Below the pieces are notes generated by a model, which saw nothing but the letters and a program-made list of their open reading frames with translations, did no database searches and was not told the origin of the DNA. This document shows positions 23,586 to 44,721 of a stretch of DNA of 58,382 bases, in pieces. The position numbers and the translations under genes were made by a program. This DNA is from a virus: positions 1 through 58,382 of the IMG/VR virus record IMGVR_UViG_3300048694_000413. The stretch is one strand, 5' to 3'. Numbering within the stretch: the first letter of the stretch is position 1; each line of letters begins with the position of its first letter.

Positions 23586-24962
23586 TTATAACCCCAACAC
23601 TAATTCATATTGAATTTCTAAACTGTCTCCTGCAGTTTTAATTACTGGTGATGAAAGAACTGTTCTACTGACTAGACCATCCATAGGATTAACTCCAGTA
23701 AATCTATCTATTTTTATAGCATCAAAAATAAGATTTCCAGTTGTACTTACCAAAATAGCGGATACATTGTAGTTAAAATTATTTGCAATAGTTAGTGTTG
23801 AGAGTTGAGCAGAAACAATTGTAAGTCCTGCTGCATAAGATTGTGATGGAATTGTCCATGTCATAGAGCCAGCACCATAACTTGCATTATTTTGATTATC
23901 ATAAAATGTTACTGTGATAGCCTTACTTGTTTGAGTGGAACCAGTATTATTATATACGGCTAACTTAATTGTATCTGCTGGGTTATAAATTGATAAATCA
24001 ATTCCAGAAAGAACGCCTGGTTTTTGTGGGGATGCTATTGTTCCTCCTAGCATCGTAGAACCAACACTTACTCCAAGAGAGTACGCTGCTACATATGATA
24101 AAGAAAGATTGGTTCCAGATGACCAGTATGAATTATTTACTGTAGTTCCCTCATCAAATTTTGTAATAATATCTGTTGAATATGTACCATTTGAAATAAA
24201 ACTATTATTTGAAAACACTCCAACTTCATTAATTGTAGCAACTAAATCTGTATCTAGTGATGTTTTTAAAATTATTTTTCTTTGAGTAAAGGTAATTGTT
24301 CCAGAAACTGTTGCATGAGCATGTGATAATGTTACAGTTGTAGTAGTATTAGTACTTGATACGGCAGTAACAACTGAATTTATATCAATGTTTGTACCGC
24401 TAACTGCCATTCCAGAAACAATATAGGAAGATCCAATACTGGTTATTGTTCCTGCTGTAAGACCACTTGCTGCTAAAACTTTAATTGAAGTTGGACCAAT
24501 GACTTCAGTAATTAAAGTATTTGTTCCAATATTTCCAGTACCATTAGTAGCATTAATTCTTGATCCAACTACCATTCCAGCAGTTGATGTTAATCCAGTA
24601 ATAGTTGCAGTATTTGATGTTACTGTTCCAATTGTTCCTCCGCCAAATGAACCTGATGTTCCTGATGTTGGCAGTGTAATAACTAAGGAATATGAATCTG
24701 GAGCAGATGAATAAGTTGCAGTTGATGTCATAATATTAGGTGATTTAAGAAGAATAGAATTTCTTGCAACTTCAAAATCAAGTGCGGTATTTGTTATTGC
24801 TGGAGTTGTAGTTCCAATACCTACTCCCAAAGAGTTTGCCCAACTTGAAACAGATGATCCCAGAAACTTTAACATAATATCTTTTCCGATAGATGTTACA
24901 ATGTTTTCTTTTTCAGCAACACATTTACCATTCTTAATAATTTTGTAAGAACCTAAAATCAT
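23586..24962 (-). CDS. Minor tail protein, 458 aa
   Basis: Tail-tip structural protein. The N-terminus (MILGSYKIIKNGKC) is followed by a helical segment (IGKDIMLKFLG) and then long beta-rich, Thr/Ser/Gly/Ile-rich sequence with little charge, as in beta-helical fibre shafts. The C-terminal 100 residues look like a globular beta sandwich. There is no catalytic motif. It starts one base from the end of the 144-aa gene and ends at the start of the GKIGG-repeat protein, so the three are coupled. It is probably part of the same adhesion device. Confidence 0.7.
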   Translation of the reverse strand: MILGSYKIIKNGKCVAEKENIVTSIGKDIMLKFLGSSVSSWANSLGVGIGTTTPAITNTALDFEVARNSILLKSPNIMTSTATYSSAPDSYSLVITLPTSGTSGSFGGGTIGTVTSNTATITGLTSTAGMVVGSRINATNGTGNIGTNTLITEVIGPTSIKVLAASGLTAGTITSIGSSYIVSGMAVSGTNIDINSVVTAVSSTNTTTTVTLSHAHATVSGTITFTQRKIILKTSLDTDLVATINEVGVFSNNSFISNGTYSTDIITKFDEGTTVNNSYWSSGTNLSLSYVAAYSLGVSVGSTMLGGTIASPQKPGVLSGIDLSIYNPADTIKLAVYNNTGSTQTSKAITVTFYDNQNNASYGAGSMTWTIPSQSYAAGLTIVSAQLSTLTIANNFNYNVSAILVSTTGNLIFDAIKIDRFTGVNPMDGLVSRTVLSSPVIKTAGDSLEIQYELVLGL

Positions 24963-25396
24963 TATACTACCTCTTTAACTGCAACTTCATAATTTACAGC
25001 ACCATTAGCATCTGTAAATAAAACCTTAATTGTATTTGTAATTGTTCCATCTGCTCCCTTTACTGCTGTTGCATTTACTGTATCTACTGCAAGGGATGTT
25101 GGTGGAAGTACAGCAGACATCGTTACTGGGTCATATGTAGCAGCAGCGGAGGTTAGTGGTGGGTTATATGGAGAAATTGGAACACTTGCAATATCTTCAA
25201 TTGTAAGCCCCTGTATAGTACCATCTGGAATATCAAGAATTGATGTATCCTGTTTAATTACATTTTGATAATCTGGATGATTTGGTCCAATGTTATATAA
25301 TGGATTATCACGGGTAGCAATAATCTTTTCAGGACTCTGTACCGTAGACCTGTTTGTTACACTTCTATTTTTTTTGGGCTTATTTCTGTCAAACAT
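24962..25396 (-). CDS. Structural protein, 144 aa (possible leaderless start)
   Basis: Small tail-associated protein of no recognised family. A basic N-terminus (MFDRNKPKKNRSVTNR) precedes a proline-rich middle and a C-terminal beta-rich domain ending VNYEVAVKEVV. No SD precedes ATG 25396. Instead TGGTATAAT at 25403-25411 ends six bases before the ATG, so a transcript from it would start at or next to the start codon. It sits between the tail-tip hub gene and the minor tail genes. Confidence 0.68.
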   Translation of the reverse strand: MFDRNKPKKNRSVTNRSTVQSPEKIIATRDNPLYNIGPNHPDYQNVIKQDTSILDIPDGTIQGLTIEDIASVPISPYNPPLTSAAATYDPVTMSAVLPPTSLAVDTVNATAVKGADGTITNTIKVLFTDANGAVNYEVAVKEVV

Positions 25397-35724: not shown

Positions 35725-36024
35725 TTATTCACCTTCTTGCTCATACCCTAGACCCATGCCAATTCCAAACTCTGCTTGACGGTCTTTGAGTGTAGCAATA
35801 TCTTCCCTTTCTGAATCATCATCTAGATCAACCCCCTGCAATGCTGCAAAGAACTTTCTATCTTGACTTTTCTGTTCTCTAAAGGATTTTAAGGTAGCAA
35901 GTAATTCATCCATACTTAAACTATCTTCTAATTCTTCAAAGTTCTTCCAGTTACCTAGAAGAAAGATTTCGGCTTCCAGAGCAGCAATGTCTAATTCGTC
36001 CCAACGAGTGCTGCTCCCAGGAGA
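35725..36024 (-). CDS. Tail assembly chaperone, -1 frameshift extension (T part)
   Basis: Second half of the gpG-gpT-like chaperone, made only as a fusion. In the -1 frame the sequence is open from the slippery site and reads SPGSSTRWDELDIAALEAEI, then LGNWKNFEELEDSL, then MDELLATLKSF, ending GYEQEGE at 35725. The RWDELDIAALEAEIF-LLGNWKNFEE pattern is characteristic of this family. A separate start inside it at 35913 has no SD and would lose the conserved part. With the G part the fusion is about 199 residues. The stop is four bases from the tape measure TTG start, whose product it helps to chaperone. Confidence 0.85.
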   Translation of the reverse strand, partial: SPGSSTRWDELDIAALEAEIFLLGNWKNFEELEDSLSMDELLATLKSFREQKSQDRKFFAALQGVDLDDDSEREDIATLKDRQAEFGIGMGLGYEQEGE

Positions 36025-36323
36025 TTTGGGTCAGATGCCTTTAATCCTCCTGCAACTTCTAAAATCTTCATGACTGTAGGAAGAGTTACAAGTTCTTCAA
36101 TGTCTTCCTTTGTCTTATCAGAGAAGACCTTTGGATGTAGAGCCTTGAGGCAAAGAACACAGGCTTCCATGAATACATCCATCATATCTGTTTCGTCTTC
36201 TACATTTTCATTATTAATAACATCCATAAATCTGCGAAGAGCCTTAATTGGGAGCGGCTTAATAAGCACGGACTCCCCGTTTTCCAATTCTAATTCAAAA
36301 GTGTCGTAAACCTTAGTTGCCAC
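35991..36323 (-). CDS. Tail assembly chaperone (G part)
   Basis: Upstream, unshifted product of the tail chaperone pair, lying between the major tail protein and the tape measure as in many siphophages. GTG 36323 (MATKVYDTFELELENG) is chosen because GGAGG (36329-36333) lies five bases upstream; the in-frame ATG 36335 and GTG 36341 have no SD. The product has 110 residues, with an acidic middle and a helical C-terminus ending AALVGTN. Near its 3' end lies CCCAAAT, the probable -1 slippery site. A terminator and new promoter lie just upstream, so these genes may be transcribed separately from the major tail protein. Confidence 0.87.
   Translation of the reverse strand: MATKVYDTFELELENGESVLIKPLPIKALRRFMDVINNENVEDETDMMDVFMEACVLCLKALHPKVFSDKTKEDIEELVTLPTVMKILEVAGGLKASDPNLLGAALVGTN
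36024..36030 (-). other. -1 ribosomal frameshift site CCCAAAT
   Basis: On the minus strand the zero-frame codons CCA AAT are preceded by C, giving a perfect X XXY YYZ heptamer. The -1 frame has a TGA immediately upstream (spanning the TCT and GAC codons) and is open for 99 codons downstream, so the shift must occur in the short interval containing this heptamer. Confidence 0.82.
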
Positions 36324-36351
36324 TTTATCCTCCATTTTCACTAGTACAAAA

Positions 36352-36435: not shown

Positions 36436-37128
36436 TTATGCGCCATAAACACGGTCAATAATCTTGCCGTATTCTGAACCGTCATAAGCATCATTGTCGT
36501 CTGGAAGACAACGGAATGTTACTGGGAATACTGTTGCATCTCCACGCTTTAGACCATGAGAAACTGTATCCATTGCTACGACACGACGAGCAATGTAGAC
36601 ACGCTCCTTCTTCTTGATAGAAGAAGCGTCAACGCTTGACTCTTCCCCACCTAGTTTTGCTGGGGCATTTCCAATTGCAACAATTGAACGCTCAACTGGA
36701 GCAGTACCTAAAGCACCACCTGAGATGTTTAGAGTTGCAGTTGAACTTGCACTTAAAACAGTTAGAGCACTTACAGTTGACTGAACTGATCCTGAGTATG
36801 TAATTACTGAATCTTCCTGTCCAAATGCTACCTGCATGTTCTCAAGTGTTGCCTCAGCAAGTGATGTCTTTAGATTAACCTTTAGACCCTGCTTGAATAG
36901 ACGAGCAGCATCAAGTAGTTGGTCAACCATAACATCGCCGTAATCTGGTTCGTAAGATAGTTCAAGACCTTCTGTTGTGTAGCCCATTCCTCTCCAGTTT
37001 GTTGTGTCAGAAGCAAGTGTTGTTGCTGCTGGAGTTCCTGCTGAGAGTGATAAGTCTGCTGGACGCTTGCCCATCCTTGAAATCCAAAGATCTGCTGCAC
37101 CAACGATGATATTCTTTACATTTGCCAT
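36436..37128 (-). CDS. Major tail (tube) protein
   Basis: Tail tube subunit, 230 residues. It lies between the tail-completion proteins and the tail chaperones, the canonical place. The block GLELSYEPDYGDVMVDQLLD followed by ARLFKQGL is typical of siphophage tube proteins. A Ser/Thr-rich insert in the middle and a final strand region (DATVFPVTFRCLPD) complete it. A strong terminator follows and a separate promoter precedes it, as expected for one of the most abundant proteins. Its leader shares a 19-base identical block with the capsid gene leader at the same distance from the ATG. Confidence 0.88.
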   Translation of the reverse strand: MANVKNIIVGAADLWISRMGKRPADLSLSAGTPAATTLASDTTNWRGMGYTTEGLELSYEPDYGDVMVDQLLDAARLFKQGLKVNLKTSLAEATLENMQVAFGQEDSVITYSGSVQSTVSALTVLSASSTATLNISGGALGTAPVERSIVAIGNAPAKLGGEESSVDASSIKKKERVYIARRVVAMDTVSHGLKRGDATVFPVTFRCLPDDNDAYDGSEYGKIIDRVYGA

Positions 37129-40345: not shown

Positions 40346-41368
40346 TTAGGATGCAACCTTAACATTCTTGACAACAACATGTGCGTCAAGGTTTTCAATT
40401 GCACAACCAACACGGATGAATAGAGTGTATTCAATTGTGTCCTTCTTTGGCTTGAACTCACGGTATACTGTGACATCACGCTTGATACCCACAATGAAGT
40501 TCTGTGGGAATGTGAGGTGTACCTCACCGTGGTTGCCTGTAGCACCTGAGTATGTACCGCTGCGGGTCTCATCCATTAGAGGCACATTCACAACTGGAAT
40601 ACCAAATGCGAATGGTGTTACTGTACCTGGACCACCGTCATTAGCAGCAACATTACCACGGATAACGCCAGAAGCGATATCGAATGGAGATGAAGCAACA
40701 TTGGTTAGGTCGTATAGGTAATCCTGTACTAGATTTGAACCTGCGAAGAAGCGTAGTTGGTTTCTACGCTGCTTGTACTTACGAGGCAAAGCCTTGAGAG
40801 CACTATTGAATTCTGCACTTGAAAGTGTAGAACCTGCAGCGTCAACAACATGTCCTCCAGCAAGAGCCTTCTTACGGAAGCCGTTAAATGCCTGTAGAAG
40901 ACCATCTGAAGAGTCGGTATCACCATTGATAAGGACATCCTCTACATCGTTGCCAGCCTGTGTTGCCATTAGGCGTGCAATGTGATCTTCAAGGTCGGAT
41001 CCTTCTAGGTTATCCTCTAGAGATTCGCTGGAAAGTTCCCAGTCTAGACGGAGTTTTGTTGTTGTTAGAGAAACCTTACTGAATGTTGCACCAGTGTTTG
41101 TGTACCCTGAAACATAGTTCTGAGGTGCATTTTCTGTTGCTACACGCATGATTCTCTCGCCAACGGCTACCTTATCGATTTCTGTGGTGTTGGAGCGCAT
41201 ACGGATTGTACGAGCAGCCTTTGCAAGGATTGTTGCATCCCACATGTAGTCGATGAAACGGTTAGCCTGATCTGGGTAAAGAAGACCGTGACCATTAGTA
41301 TTGGTTGTGGTTGCATCTGAACCGAGATTGGTTGTATCAATTACTTTTTGTAATAGATCGTTACTCAT
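40346..41368 (-). CDS. Major capsid protein, HK97 fold
   Basis: Main head subunit, 340 residues, encoded after the protease/scaffold gene and before a strong terminator. Its layout fits the HK97 fold: a short N-terminal arm, an extended E-loop-like region (ATENAPQNYVSGYTNTG), the spine helix (EDHIARLMATQAGNDVEDVLING), a P-domain, and an A-domain with GIPVVNVPLM and FIVGIKRDVTVY. There is no obvious delta-domain scaffold at the N-terminus, consistent with the separate scaffold nested in the protease gene. Its leader shares a 19-base block with the major tail protein leader, fitting co-ordinate high expression. Confidence 0.9.
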   Translation of the reverse strand: MSNDLLQKVIDTTNLGSDATTTNTNGHGLLYPDQANRFIDYMWDATILAKAARTIRMRSNTTEIDKVAVGERIMRVATENAPQNYVSGYTNTGATFSKVSLTTTKLRLDWELSSESLEDNLEGSDLEDHIARLMATQAGNDVEDVLINGDTDSSDGLLQAFNGFRKKALAGGHVVDAAGSTLSSAEFNSALKALPRKYKQRRNQLRFFAGSNLVQDYLYDLTNVASSPFDIASGVIRGNVAANDGGPGTVTPFAFGIPVVNVPLMDETRSGTYSGATGNHGEVHLTFPQNFIVGIKRDVTVYREFKPKKDTIEYTLFIRVGCAIENLDAHVVVKNVKVAS

Positions 41369-41400: not shown

Positions 41401-41406
41401 ATTATA
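41401..41406 (-). promoter_or_regulatory. Possible -10 box before the capsid gene
   Basis: TATAAT on the minus strand overlapping the stop codon of the protease gene, 32 bases before the capsid ATG. No -35 or TGN extension, so confidence is modest. Confidence 0.4.
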
Positions 41407-41902
41407 GATCGTTGATTCCGAGGAAGGAACCTTTCCAGAAACCATCATTATTATCTGATTTCTTTAGTGATCCGAATGACTCAGTGGCTTGGTCATTGGA
41501 CTTCTTTACTGCAGTGGCTGACTCACATGCAGAGATTCTTGCGCTCATAGCACCCATCTCTGACTTCATGGTCTCCATTGCCTTCATCATTTCACCATGC
41601 TTATCAGTCATTTCTGACTTAGCCATGCCTATCTGACGAGTAAGTTCTGCGATAATTTCTTCGACACTTGGTGTATCCATTGCCTTAGAAATTGTTTCTT
41701 CGATATAAGTTTTAATGCCGCTTAGCATTTTTTCAAATTCAGAATCCTCTGCTGCTTCTTCTGCAACTTCTGAATCTTCTGGGTCAGCAGACTTTTCAAG
41801 TTCTGACTCTCCTGCTTCTTCAACTGGAGCCTCTTCTACTGTTGACTCTTCAACAACTTCTTCGACTTCATCTGCGGCTGGTACTTCTAGTTCATCTGAC
41901 AT
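41402..41902 (-). CDS. Probable scaffold protein from internal in-frame start
   Basis: An in-frame ATG at codon 253 of the protease gene (MSDELEVPAADEVEE) is preceded by AAGGAGGT six bases upstream, the best SD in the window. It would give a 166-residue acidic, helical protein. It has a Glu/Ala-rich first half, then EKMLSGIKTYIEETI, a long Met-rich helix (GEMMKAMETMKSEMGAM) and a basic end. This is the composition expected of a capsid scaffold. The arrangement matches phage lambda, where scaffold Nu3 is made from an internal start in protease gene C. Confidence 0.72.
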   Translation of the reverse strand: MSDELEVPAADEVEEVVEESTVEEAPVEEAGESELEKSADPEDSEVAEEAAEDSEFEKMLSGIKTYIEETISKAMDTPSVEEIIAELTRQIGMAKSEMTDKHGEMMKAMETMKSEMGAMSARISACESATAVKKSNDQATESFGSLKKSDNNDGFWKGSFLGINDL

Positions 41903-42658
41903 ATCATTACCTCCTTCTCCAGTAATATCTTTTGCAATGTAGTTATTTACAGTCTTCTCAATATCGGTTGATTTTGTTTCAACTGAATCTTCAATCCATC
42001 CGATACTCTTCATATCATTTGAACATACATCACACTTAAGAGATTCTGAAGCATCTGTTGTTGCAATTTGATCTGAGTCACAGTAGAAAACATTAACTGT
42101 CTTTACAGTTGTAGCCATTCCTGTAACCTTGAAGCCAATATCTGACTTCTGGATTGAGAATACATTTGCAAACTGATTTGCTGGATTATCAACAAGGGAT
42201 AACTCTACTAGGTCGTAGTCCTTGATAATTCTGATTGGTCCGTCATGGTCATCATGAGCCATAACTGTATCGGTCTTATTAATGCTACCACCGATTGAGA
42301 AGCCTGAAAGGGTTCCATCAAGGACTTTCTCCCATGTGTCCTGTGCGCCCTTAGAAACATAGACATCAACAAATACTCCACTATAGTTTTTCTTTGTTTC
42401 GCTATCATAAAAATCTTTTTGCTTGAATGATACTACCTTGCCAACTGCAATTGGCTGGTGCATCTCACGAATATTTCCACGGAAACGGGTAAAGGCATCC
42501 ATACTTGCTGATGTATCTACGATATCACCGTGCTTATCAACATTATCAAGAGTGGCAAAACCAGATACGATTCTGCGCTCTTTGTCTACCTTAACAAATG
42601 GTACTGACAATGACATTTCATTGCCGTCTGTTACCCAATATGACTTTTTCAATTCCAT
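41402..42658 (-). CDS. Prohead protease with C-terminal scaffold region
   Basis: Capsid maturation protease, 418 residues. The N-terminal half is an HK97-type (S78) protease: SGFATLDNVDKHGDIV, then H67 in REMHQPIAVG and the catalytic serine in SGFSIGGSI (about S121), then VELSLVDNPAN. A segment with two Cys pairs follows (FYCDSD region and CDVC). The C-terminal 166 residues are scaffold-like and can also be made alone. Neither SD nor leader precedes ATG 42658, but TGGTATTAT ends nine bases before it. Size is about double that of a bare protease, explained by the fused scaffold. Confidence 0.87.
   Translation of the reverse strand: MELKKSYWVTDGNEMSLSVPFVKVDKERRIVSGFATLDNVDKHGDIVDTSASMDAFTRFRGNIREMHQPIAVGKVVSFKQKDFYDSETKKNYSGVFVDVYVSKGAQDTWEKVLDGTLSGFSIGGSINKTDTVMAHDDHDGPIRIIKDYDLVELSLVDNPANQFANVFSIQKSDIGFKVTGMATTVKTVNVFYCDSDQIATTDASESLKCDVCSNDMKSIGWIEDSVETKSTDIEKTVNNYIAKDITGEGGNDMSDELEVPAADEVEEVVEESTVEEAPVEEAGESELEKSADPEDSEVAEEAAEDSEFEKMLSGIKTYIEETISKAMDTPSVEEIIAELTRQIGMAKSEMTDKHGEMMKAMETMKSEMGAMSARISACESATAVKKSNDQATESFGSLKKSDNNDGFWKGSFLGINDL
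41909..41916 (-). promoter_or_regulatory. Internal ribosome binding site for the scaffold
   Basis: AAGGAGGT on the minus strand, a full anti-16S match, six bases before the in-frame ATG at 41900-41902 inside the protease gene. Confidence 0.75.
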
Positions 42659-42667
42659 AGTAAATTA

Positions 42668-42676
42668 ATAATACCA
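42668..42676 (-). promoter_or_regulatory. Extended -10 promoter next to the protease start
   Basis: TGG-TATTAT on the minus strand, with nine bases to ATG 42658 and no SD between. Transcription from here would give a leader of about three bases or none. Confidence 0.5.
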
Positions 42677-42713: not shown

Positions 42714-44387
42714 TTATGCTTGTTGGCGACCTTCTCCTTTAGGATTTCTTGCTTCACCGCTTGTATCTGGTGAATTAGCCTGTCTTTGTTGACTTCTTTG
42801 ACGGTTTCCTGTTGCATTAGCAGTTGCATCTGCAGCCTGTTGACCTGTTAGTTTAACTGGAACATCTCCTCCATCTAAAGGAACCATTCCCTTTCTAATT
42901 CTAACATCATTAGGAACAATTACCTGCATTCTTAGATAACGCTCATCAATCTTAGACTGTGTATCTTCGTCAGTAAGAGTAAGTTCATTGAACTTAATAA
43001 GGAACATATCTGTAAATTCTTTTACAATTCTATTTAACTTATGCTCAAAATTATCCTGCTCTGGACGAGTTACCTGCTCACGGAATGTCTTATCAGCATC
43101 ACGAGCATTGGCAAGTGAGATACCTGCCATTAGAGAAACCTTTGTTAGTGGAACACGATGAGCCATGAGAATTTCAATCTTATTATCCTGGCGGTATGTA
43201 TGGAATGATGAATCCTGTACATCTGCCTCTACTGGCTCCATCTTAAATTCTACTTTTGAAGTTCCCTCATCTGCTGGAAGAGGAATATAGAGTGAACGAT
43301 GATTCTGTCCCTTAAGTCCAGTTTGGAAAAACTCTAGAAGTTTGCGCTCTGAATCAGCATTAAGTTTTGCACCCTTTACAGTAATAATGTAACGAGGAAC
43401 AGCCTTATTTTCAAAGTAATCGATATTAAACTTTGATGCAAACTGGTCACCAGCAATAGCATTTGTTGCTGGAATAATATCTGGAATTCCATAATAAAAG
43501 TTTGTTGGAGTGTACTTCTTTATATGAATGACTTCATTTGGATTTGGGTCATCGCCAATTTGATCTGGAGTATCCTTATCTCCAAAATTGCGGAAAAACA
43601 TTGTACGATAATTTACAATTTGTACAAATCCATCACGCTTACGACGAATACGCATCGTTGTGGCTGGAATATGACCTAAGTATCCAATTTCACCATTAGC
43701 CTTACGACCAACTTCAAGATAGCAGTTACCTGTGACCTCGTAGTCAATATAAGCCTTCTTTAAGGTATCTAGAAGCGTGTCTTCAATATTTAAATCGCCT
43801 ACACGCTGTTTAAGGGCTTCTTTAGCCTTTGCAATTTTACGACGAAATCTCTGAATAGATTCAATCTGCTCATCTGGAATCTCATCAAGTTTTGCAAGGA
43901 CTGCGGCAGTTTCAATAAAATCATACCCAAGACCTACAACATTTGAAGTCTTAGCCTGAACAGCGGCATAATGTGCTGAATTAATTTCATAAATCTTTGC
44001 AAGGTAGTCCATATTGTAAGTTGGAATAACAACATTGAATAATGCATAGGCAGTTACTTCTACTGGCTCAAGTTTTTTAGATTTTACCCCATCTTTACCC
44101 TGTGCCTGATTAACTCCTGGAGTTGTAGGAAGATTCATGCCACCATTTGTTGAGCCACCACCTGCGAAAGTTGGTCCAACATTTATTTGTTTTGCAGCCT
44201 TTTCAATATCACGATTCATCTTACGACGGAAGTTATGACCTAATCCAGTAAGTTTTGACAAGTCCTCACCAGAAATGGCAAAGGGGTCAGATTCAGAATC
44301 TGTATCTATTGACTTTCTAAATGATAATGTTCCAATATTAATGTAATCATCATCACGATCATCGTCTGCTCTAACGACCCCTGGCAT
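42714..44387 (-). CDS. Portal protein, 557 aa
   Basis: Dodecameric DNA gateway of the head. The family pattern is clear: an N-terminal arm, AYALFNVVIPTYNMDYL, then YIDYEVTGNCYLEVGR, GHIPATTMRIRRK, EVIHIKKYTPTNFYYGIPDI, and IEILMAHRVPLTKVSL. These fit HK97/PBSX-type portals. A long Gln/Arg-rich C-terminal tail (NRQRSQQRQANS) follows. It lies upstream of the protease and capsid genes; the terminase is not adjacent but about 43 kb away. The start overlaps the 116-aa gene by 17 bases. Confidence 0.93.
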   Translation of the reverse strand: MPGVVRADDDRDDDYINIGTLSFRKSIDTDSESDPFAISGEDLSKLTGLGHNFRRKMNRDIEKAAKQINVGPTFAGGGSTNGGMNLPTTPGVNQAQGKDGVKSKKLEPVEVTAYALFNVVIPTYNMDYLAKIYEINSAHYAAVQAKTSNVVGLGYDFIETAAVLAKLDEIPDEQIESIQRFRRKIAKAKEALKQRVGDLNIEDTLLDTLKKAYIDYEVTGNCYLEVGRKANGEIGYLGHIPATTMRIRRKRDGFVQIVNYRTMFFRNFGDKDTPDQIGDDPNPNEVIHIKKYTPTNFYYGIPDIIPATNAIAGDQFASKFNIDYFENKAVPRYIITVKGAKLNADSERKLLEFFQTGLKGQNHRSLYIPLPADEGTSKVEFKMEPVEADVQDSSFHTYRQDNKIEILMAHRVPLTKVSLMAGISLANARDADKTFREQVTRPEQDNFEHKLNRIVKEFTDMFLIKFNELTLTDEDTQSKIDERYLRMQVIVPNDVRIRKGMVPLDGGDVPVKLTGQQAADATANATGNRQRSQQRQANSPDTSGEARNPKGEGRQQA

Positions 44388-44721
44388 TCTTTACCTCCAA
44401 CTGCTTTTGTTCCTCTTGGAATGCAGCAATATCTAATTCATCTGGGATAAGTCCCCATTCAAGTCTTTGTCTCTGGTATTCATATTCTTCATCAGTAACC
44501 TGACGATATCCAGACATCCATAATGGCTTTCCGCCATGTACTCCACATTCAATTGCTGCTAATTTAAGCAACATGATACGCTGCTCGTCACCTTTAAATG
44601 ATTGAATAGAAAGGTAATTGCCATTTTCATCGGTAACTACGGCTCCATCTTCTGTCTGCCATAGATAAACACCACGAAGTGACTCCTCTACTACACTAAC
44701 CTTCATTTTTCTATTTTTCAT
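44371..44721 (-). CDS. Hypothetical protein before the portal (possible leaderless start)
   Basis: 116 residues of alpha/beta type, no recognised family. Strands in the first half (VYLWQTEDGAVVTDENGNYL) are followed by a helix (DEQRIMLLKLAAIEC) and a Glu/Gln-rich C-terminal helix (ELDIAAFQEEQKQLE). It overlaps the portal start by 17 bases, so it is likely needed with the portal. ATG 44721 has no SD; an extended -10 element (TGG-TAGAAT) ends six bases before it. A second in-frame ATG at 44706 also lacks an SD. Confidence 0.7.
   Translation of the reverse strand: MKNRKMKVSVVEESLRGVYLWQTEDGAVVTDENGNYLSIQSFKGDEQRIMLLKLAAIECGVHGGKPLWMSGYRQVTDEEYEYQRQRLEWGLIPDELDIAAFQEEQKQLEVKNARGR

Follow-up and report, generated by a model that had tools for sequence, protein, structure and literature searches.

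The window analysed here is the whole of a virus record of 58,382 bases, and the gene of interest runs from 42658 to 41402 on its minus strand, with an ATG start and 418 codons (418 aa). It encodes an S78-type prohead protease fused to a C-terminal scaffold-like domain (PF04586, 28.3 bits; phrog_9427), and its ATG lacks a Shine-Dalgarno (SD) sequence. The portal protein gene (42714..44387, minus strand; PF04860, E 2.7e-29) lies immediately upstream. The gene for a major capsid protein (MCP) of the HK97 fold lies immediately downstream (40346..41368, minus strand; SD of -11.2 kcal/mol). This position between the portal and major capsid genes is that of lambda C/Nu3, and the same order is found in the annotated relatives. 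The MCP was identified by a match to TIGR01554 above its cut-off and by Foldseek matches to the T5, GTA, phiRSA1 and Mycofy1 capsids. It lacks an HK97-type delta domain: the alignment to TIGR01554 begins only at profile position 104, which pairs with MCP residue 19. An MCP without a delta (scaffold) domain would be expected to depend on a scaffold supplied in trans.

The protease domain spans residues 20-167 (42158..42601, minus strand; PF04586/PF14550). PF04586 (HK97 prohead protease, peptidase S78) scores 28.3 bits against a cut-off of 21, and PHROG 9427, a head maturation protease family, matches over the whole length (E 1e-114); the TIGR01543 match falls below its cut-off. The profile score, together with the invariant columns H67, S121 and E152/D157, indicates membership of family S78, with a putative catalytic role for the conserved His, Ser and acidic residues. 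PF04586 is matched by all 33 aligned members (alignment A2), and none matches peptidase S49, the family of lambda C. A small cysteine-containing beta domain (residues 187-223; 41990..42100, minus strand; alignment A1 and model) separates the protease from the scaffold-like region. Its C193, C209 and C212 are nearly invariant; the domain is possibly a zinc ribbon, and it is absent in Rhodococcus phage NiceHouse. One member of alignment A2 matches the Hva1_TUDOR domain.

Within this gene, codon 253 is an in-frame ATG (41900..41902, minus strand) preceded by the SD sequence AAGGAGGT (41909..41916, minus strand), with a spacer of 6 nt between AAGGAGGT (41916-41909) and the ATG at 41902. The nested gene that it opens (41402..41902 with the stop codon, minus strand) is a second in-frame reading of the protease gene with a stop codon common to both. 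The predicted product is an acidic, scaffold-like protein of 166 residues (18.1 kDa, pI 4.12), a description that draws on the alignment and an AlphaFold model. An earlier note on this DNA, which left the minus strand unstated, had placed the nested gene at these coordinates, with the same codon, spacer and product length. Every one of these details holds, and the in-frame nested start is confirmed and stronger than that note claimed.

SD strength was calculated as the duplex energy with the 3' end of 16S rRNA (anti-SD). At -13.6 kcal/mol, the internal SD is stronger than that of any of the 57 gene starts in the window and of any other of the 497 in-frame start codons inside genes, as the earlier note had proposed in calling it the best there. 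The best of the 57 gene starts reach -11.2 (the MCP gene and 36436-37128), and the next-best internal start reaches -9.4. The window contains one copy of AAGGAGGT on the coding (minus) strand and one on the other strand (34045). The 45 nt of RNA around the inner start are also less structured than elsewhere in the gene (-3.4 vs -6.6 kcal/mol). As a positive control, lambda C (NC_001416 4380-5760, L191) was scanned in the same way; its strongest internal SD lies at codon 309 (-10.8, 131-residue product), whereas the nu3 start as annotated, codon 239, ranked second (-7.4).

Conservation of the internal start was assessed in 98 full-length homologues, which form 16 clusters at 60% identity and 36 at 80%; the 36 representatives of the latter were used for the codon, SD-register and second-residue tests. 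The relatives comprise Streptomyces phages (Stanwilliamsviridae), the Rhodococcus phages Trina, Francesca and NiceHouse, and hundreds of IMG/VR contigs. A start codon (ATG, GTG or TTG) that is in frame and has an SD of -8.5 or lower is present in the same or an adjacent alignment column in 98/98 (-12 or lower in 92), and a control region, codons 20-190 of the same 98 genes, contains a comparable site in 0/98; since the relatives are not independent of one another, these strong counts should not be read as literal probabilities. A chance SD can be rejected, with only 1 of the 497 internal starts in the window this strong and none in the 98 control regions. A further search, with only the inner domain as query, found the SD at 79/79 testable loci, and all untruncated loci are in frame with the protease; this set and the 98 homologues have contigs in common. 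Split protease and scaffold genes, which would be a natural experiment, were not found among these inner-domain loci.

The most telling points for the inner start, to judge from the alignments, are the changes of register and the codon bias. The start codon itself varies (GTG 71, ATG 24, TTG 3 among the 98). Every Val at this position is encoded by GTG (20/20), a codon that accounts for 4.3% of Val codons overall (n=1410; 36 representatives), and the first Gly codon of the SD is GGA in 32/32 as against 32% in the same representatives. In L081 (CAG GAG GAG) and L102 (AAG GAG GAT), the SD is kept in another codon register and encodes different residues. The idea that selection acts on a conserved Glu-Gly-Gly peptide is rejected on this ground, as L081 has Gln-Glu-Glu and L102 Lys-Glu-Asp in the other register, and the varied residues of L016-L018 also oppose it. 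The residue following the inner start is A, S or T in 28/36 representatives vs a background of 28%, as at true N-termini. SD-like sequences within genes can act as pausing or frameshift signals for the elongating ribosome, and the internal SD could in principle play such a role. The other two frames, however, close soon after it (medians of 9 and 1 codons, maximum 26), and the start codon is conserved at initiation spacing. A pausing or frameshift signal is therefore rejected and appears scarcely credible as the function of this site. Because the SD and start are kept in 98/98 relatives, the Val codon is GTG in 20/20, and the SD outlasts changes of peptide and register, the comparative evidence, which is far above chance, supports selection for internal in-frame initiation.

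Some observations concern individual homologues. The protease genes of L036 and L069 (525 and 519 aa) exceed those of their closest relatives by ∼75-80 residues, with the extra length located before the inner start. Among the distant S78 proteins from bacterial MAGs and genomes, L103-L107, a clear counterpart of the nested start is lacking, except possibly in L104: this distant S78 protease of a Chloroflexi MAG has GGGAGGA and a GTG just past the protease domain, with 215 residues remaining, possibly a nested start.

The nested product is 160-194 residues long across the relatives, with a pI of 4.05-4.43, so the earlier description of it as acidic extends to the family. The Met-rich composition noted at the same time applies to this phage (11/166, 6.6%) and is not a family feature (mean 1.2%). 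The helical character is borne out in part: the AlphaFold model (whole-model mean pLDDT 61) predicts helices at residues 307-326 and 332-388 that would form a long coiled coil (41495..41740, minus strand; pLDDT mostly 55-75), flanked by low-confidence coil at 253-306 and a low-confidence tail. In the relatives, the N-terminal half is acidic and poorly conserved. Conserved elements are a T-A-x-[KRQ]-K-S motif and an invariant C-terminal W-x-G-x-F-L motif (41420..41437, minus strand; alignment A3).

Lys-Ser dipeptides are enriched threefold in the nested product (3.9 vs 1.3 in shuffles). HK97 cleavage occurs after a lysine, and these pairs are possibly cleavage sites. Such candidate sites, and the in-frame fusion of protease and scaffold-like domain in every relative, would also suit a scheme in which self-cleavage of the full-length protein is the sole source of scaffold, in the style of phage P2 gpO, the internal SD not being a start at all. 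That scheme leaves unexplained why the SD is maintained through register changes, why a start codon is present in 98/98, why GTG is used for Val in 20/20 and why A, S or T follows, and we consider it highly improbable compared with internal initiation.

No fold or sequence match of the nested product to a known scaffold was found in PHROG, PDB profile or structure searches. The inner domain matched only unrelated generic coiled coils among PDB profiles, and a structure search of the PDB with the full-length model gave no significant match. The lack of homology to a proven scaffold leaves room for a nested product that is made and serves another role, for example in regulating the protease or as a minor protein inside the head. 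This is unlikely, given that the portal-MCP interval contains no other scaffold candidate, that the MCP lacks a delta domain, and that composition and layout fit the nested scaffolds of lambda and Mu-like phages (PMC8508860, PMC2628397). The proposal in the earlier note that the product is a scaffold thus finds support in the position and composition of the product, its predicted coiled coil and the architecture of the MCP. Because an acidic, predicted coiled-coil product is combined with an MCP that has no delta domain and no competing candidate, a capsid scaffold is by far the likeliest identity of the nested product.

The outer start presents the opposite arrangement. Its SD energy is -2.9 kcal/mol, in agreement with the earlier statement that the outer gene has no SD, and among the relatives the outer start is ATG in 98/98 with an SD in 0/98. 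An extended -10-like element, TGGTATTAT (42668..42676, minus strand), is located 9 nt before the outer ATG and is a putative promoter. A TANNNT hexamer ends 6-11 nt upstream of the outer ATG in 98/98 relatives, mostly at 7 or 9 nt. The MCP starts, in contrast, have an SD in 81/96 and the hexamer in 12/96. The background chance of the hexamer in this interval is ∼0.22 per sequence, giving 3e-11 for the 16 clusters if these are treated as independent. A TANNNT that begins ∼12 bp ahead of the start codon, combined with the lack of an SD, is a mark of leaderless genes (Zheng and colleagues, PMC3160421), which make up >20% of genes in Actinobacteria (PMC3160421). This combination of TANNNT and no SD is present at the outer start in 98/98, with a predicted 5' leader of 0-5 nt. 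A consensus promoter scan at the outer start found no -35 element and no -35/-10 pair, and because a -35 box was not found, it is the -10-like element by itself that points to a promoter. The sequence pattern suggests that translation from the outer start probably takes place on an mRNA with no leader or almost none.

The earlier reasoning, in which the missing SD of the outer gene would favour scaffold over protease, was correct about the SD and incomplete in overlooking the conserved -10-like element. A gap of 38-60 nt separates the portal stop from the outer ATG in most of the freshwater relatives, which leaves room for a promoter and argues against translational coupling. Coupling was therefore rejected as an account of the SD-less outer start that would hold in general. 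It is possible in some Streptomyces phages, in which the outer ATG and the stop codon of the gene before it overlap. The annotated protease starts of Trina (L016, 2480) and BoomerJR (L004, 2495) appear to be placed too early, by 12 and 6 nt respectively; by the alignment, the Met codons lie 10 and 6 nt after a TANNNT element.

Similar elements occur elsewhere in the window. The SD-less genes 24962-25396, 35991-36341 and 44371-44721 (minus strand) have an extended -10-like TGGTATAAT or TGGTAGAAT 6-10 nt before the start, and such an element precedes 4/19 SD-less genes vs 1/38 genes with an SD (p 0.04). Leaderless late genes may, on this sequence pattern, be common in this phage. The motif TG[GA]TAT[AT]AT occurs seven times on the coding (minus) strand (42676, 40290, 37194, 36360, 25411, 18514 and 2475) and once on the other strand (45957), and these sites are probable extended -10 promoters.

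Nested protease/scaffold genes are already known; the S78 protease and the SD-less outer start next to a -10-like element are new here. For lambda, PMC8508860, citing Shaw and Murialdo 1980, describes the scaffold Nu3 as nested in the protease gene C. The earlier note had called the present locus a lambda C/Nu3 design, which is apt as an analogy: both have an in-frame nested scaffold or scaffold-like gene in a protease gene, a common stop codon and a location between the portal and capsid genes. The analogy does not extend to the protease family. Lambda C is a peptidase S49 (PF01343) with a strong outer SD (-11.9), whereas the present protease is of type S78, with an SD-less outer start preceded by a -10-like element, and profile tests show no homology between lambda C and the family described here. 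In the Mu-like phage KS10 (gp28 protease, gp29 scaffold), the scaffold gene is likewise embedded in frame in the protease gene, an arrangement that, as its authors state, occurs in many phages (PMC2628397). KS10 is likened by arrangement alone, and unlike here an SD is listed for both of its genes and the outer start is TTG. HK97 (gp4 protease, gp5 capsid) shares the PF04586 prohead protease family and the HK97-fold MCP, but there the delta domain at the N-terminus of the MCP serves as scaffold (PMC8508860), while here the scaffold-like region is fused to the protease. The 'capsid maturation protease' of PHROG 9427 and the Stanwilliamsviridae comprises true homologues (41-48% identical, with the same gene order and internal SD), although the Stanwilliamsviridae records annotate it as a single protease gene. 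None of the annotated relatives' records that were compared marks the nested start, and literature searches found no description of this nested gene in the family.

From the two start arrangements, their conservation and the domain layout, which are established by sequence and comparison, we infer translation, assembly function, product ratio, a leaderless transcript and proteolysis as parts of one model. We hold with high confidence that a single gene specifies two in-frame products, an S78 protease-scaffold fusion and a separately started scaffold, with a probably leaderless outer start. The full-length protein would be recruited into the growing procapsid through its scaffold-like C-terminal domain, and the leaderless or weak outer start would yield few such molecules. 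The strong internal SD and the codon-253 start would produce the scaffold domain alone, in excess, driving the assembly of a capsid protein with no built-in scaffold domain. Once the procapsid has formed, the protease would digest the scaffold and itself, allowing DNA to enter. A more tentative extension, which we regard as possible but doubtful, is a ratio switch that depends on the transcript, the protease start being active only at the 5' end of a leaderless mRNA and the scaffold start on every mRNA that crosses it. Read-through transcripts from the portal side would then give scaffold without protease, and one small internal promoter would set the amount of protease across a large group of actinobacterial phages.

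These results indicate that the nested protease/scaffold layout occurs with an S78 protease too, and they suggest a simple route to low protease and high scaffold, through leaderless and strong-SD starts on one gene. The annotated records compared from the Stanwilliamsviridae/Trinavirus group list no scaffold in the portal-MCP region. The nested product is probably the missing scaffold of the Stanwilliamsviridae, of Trinavirus and of several hundred freshwater contigs, and the cultured Streptomyces phages make its nested start directly testable.
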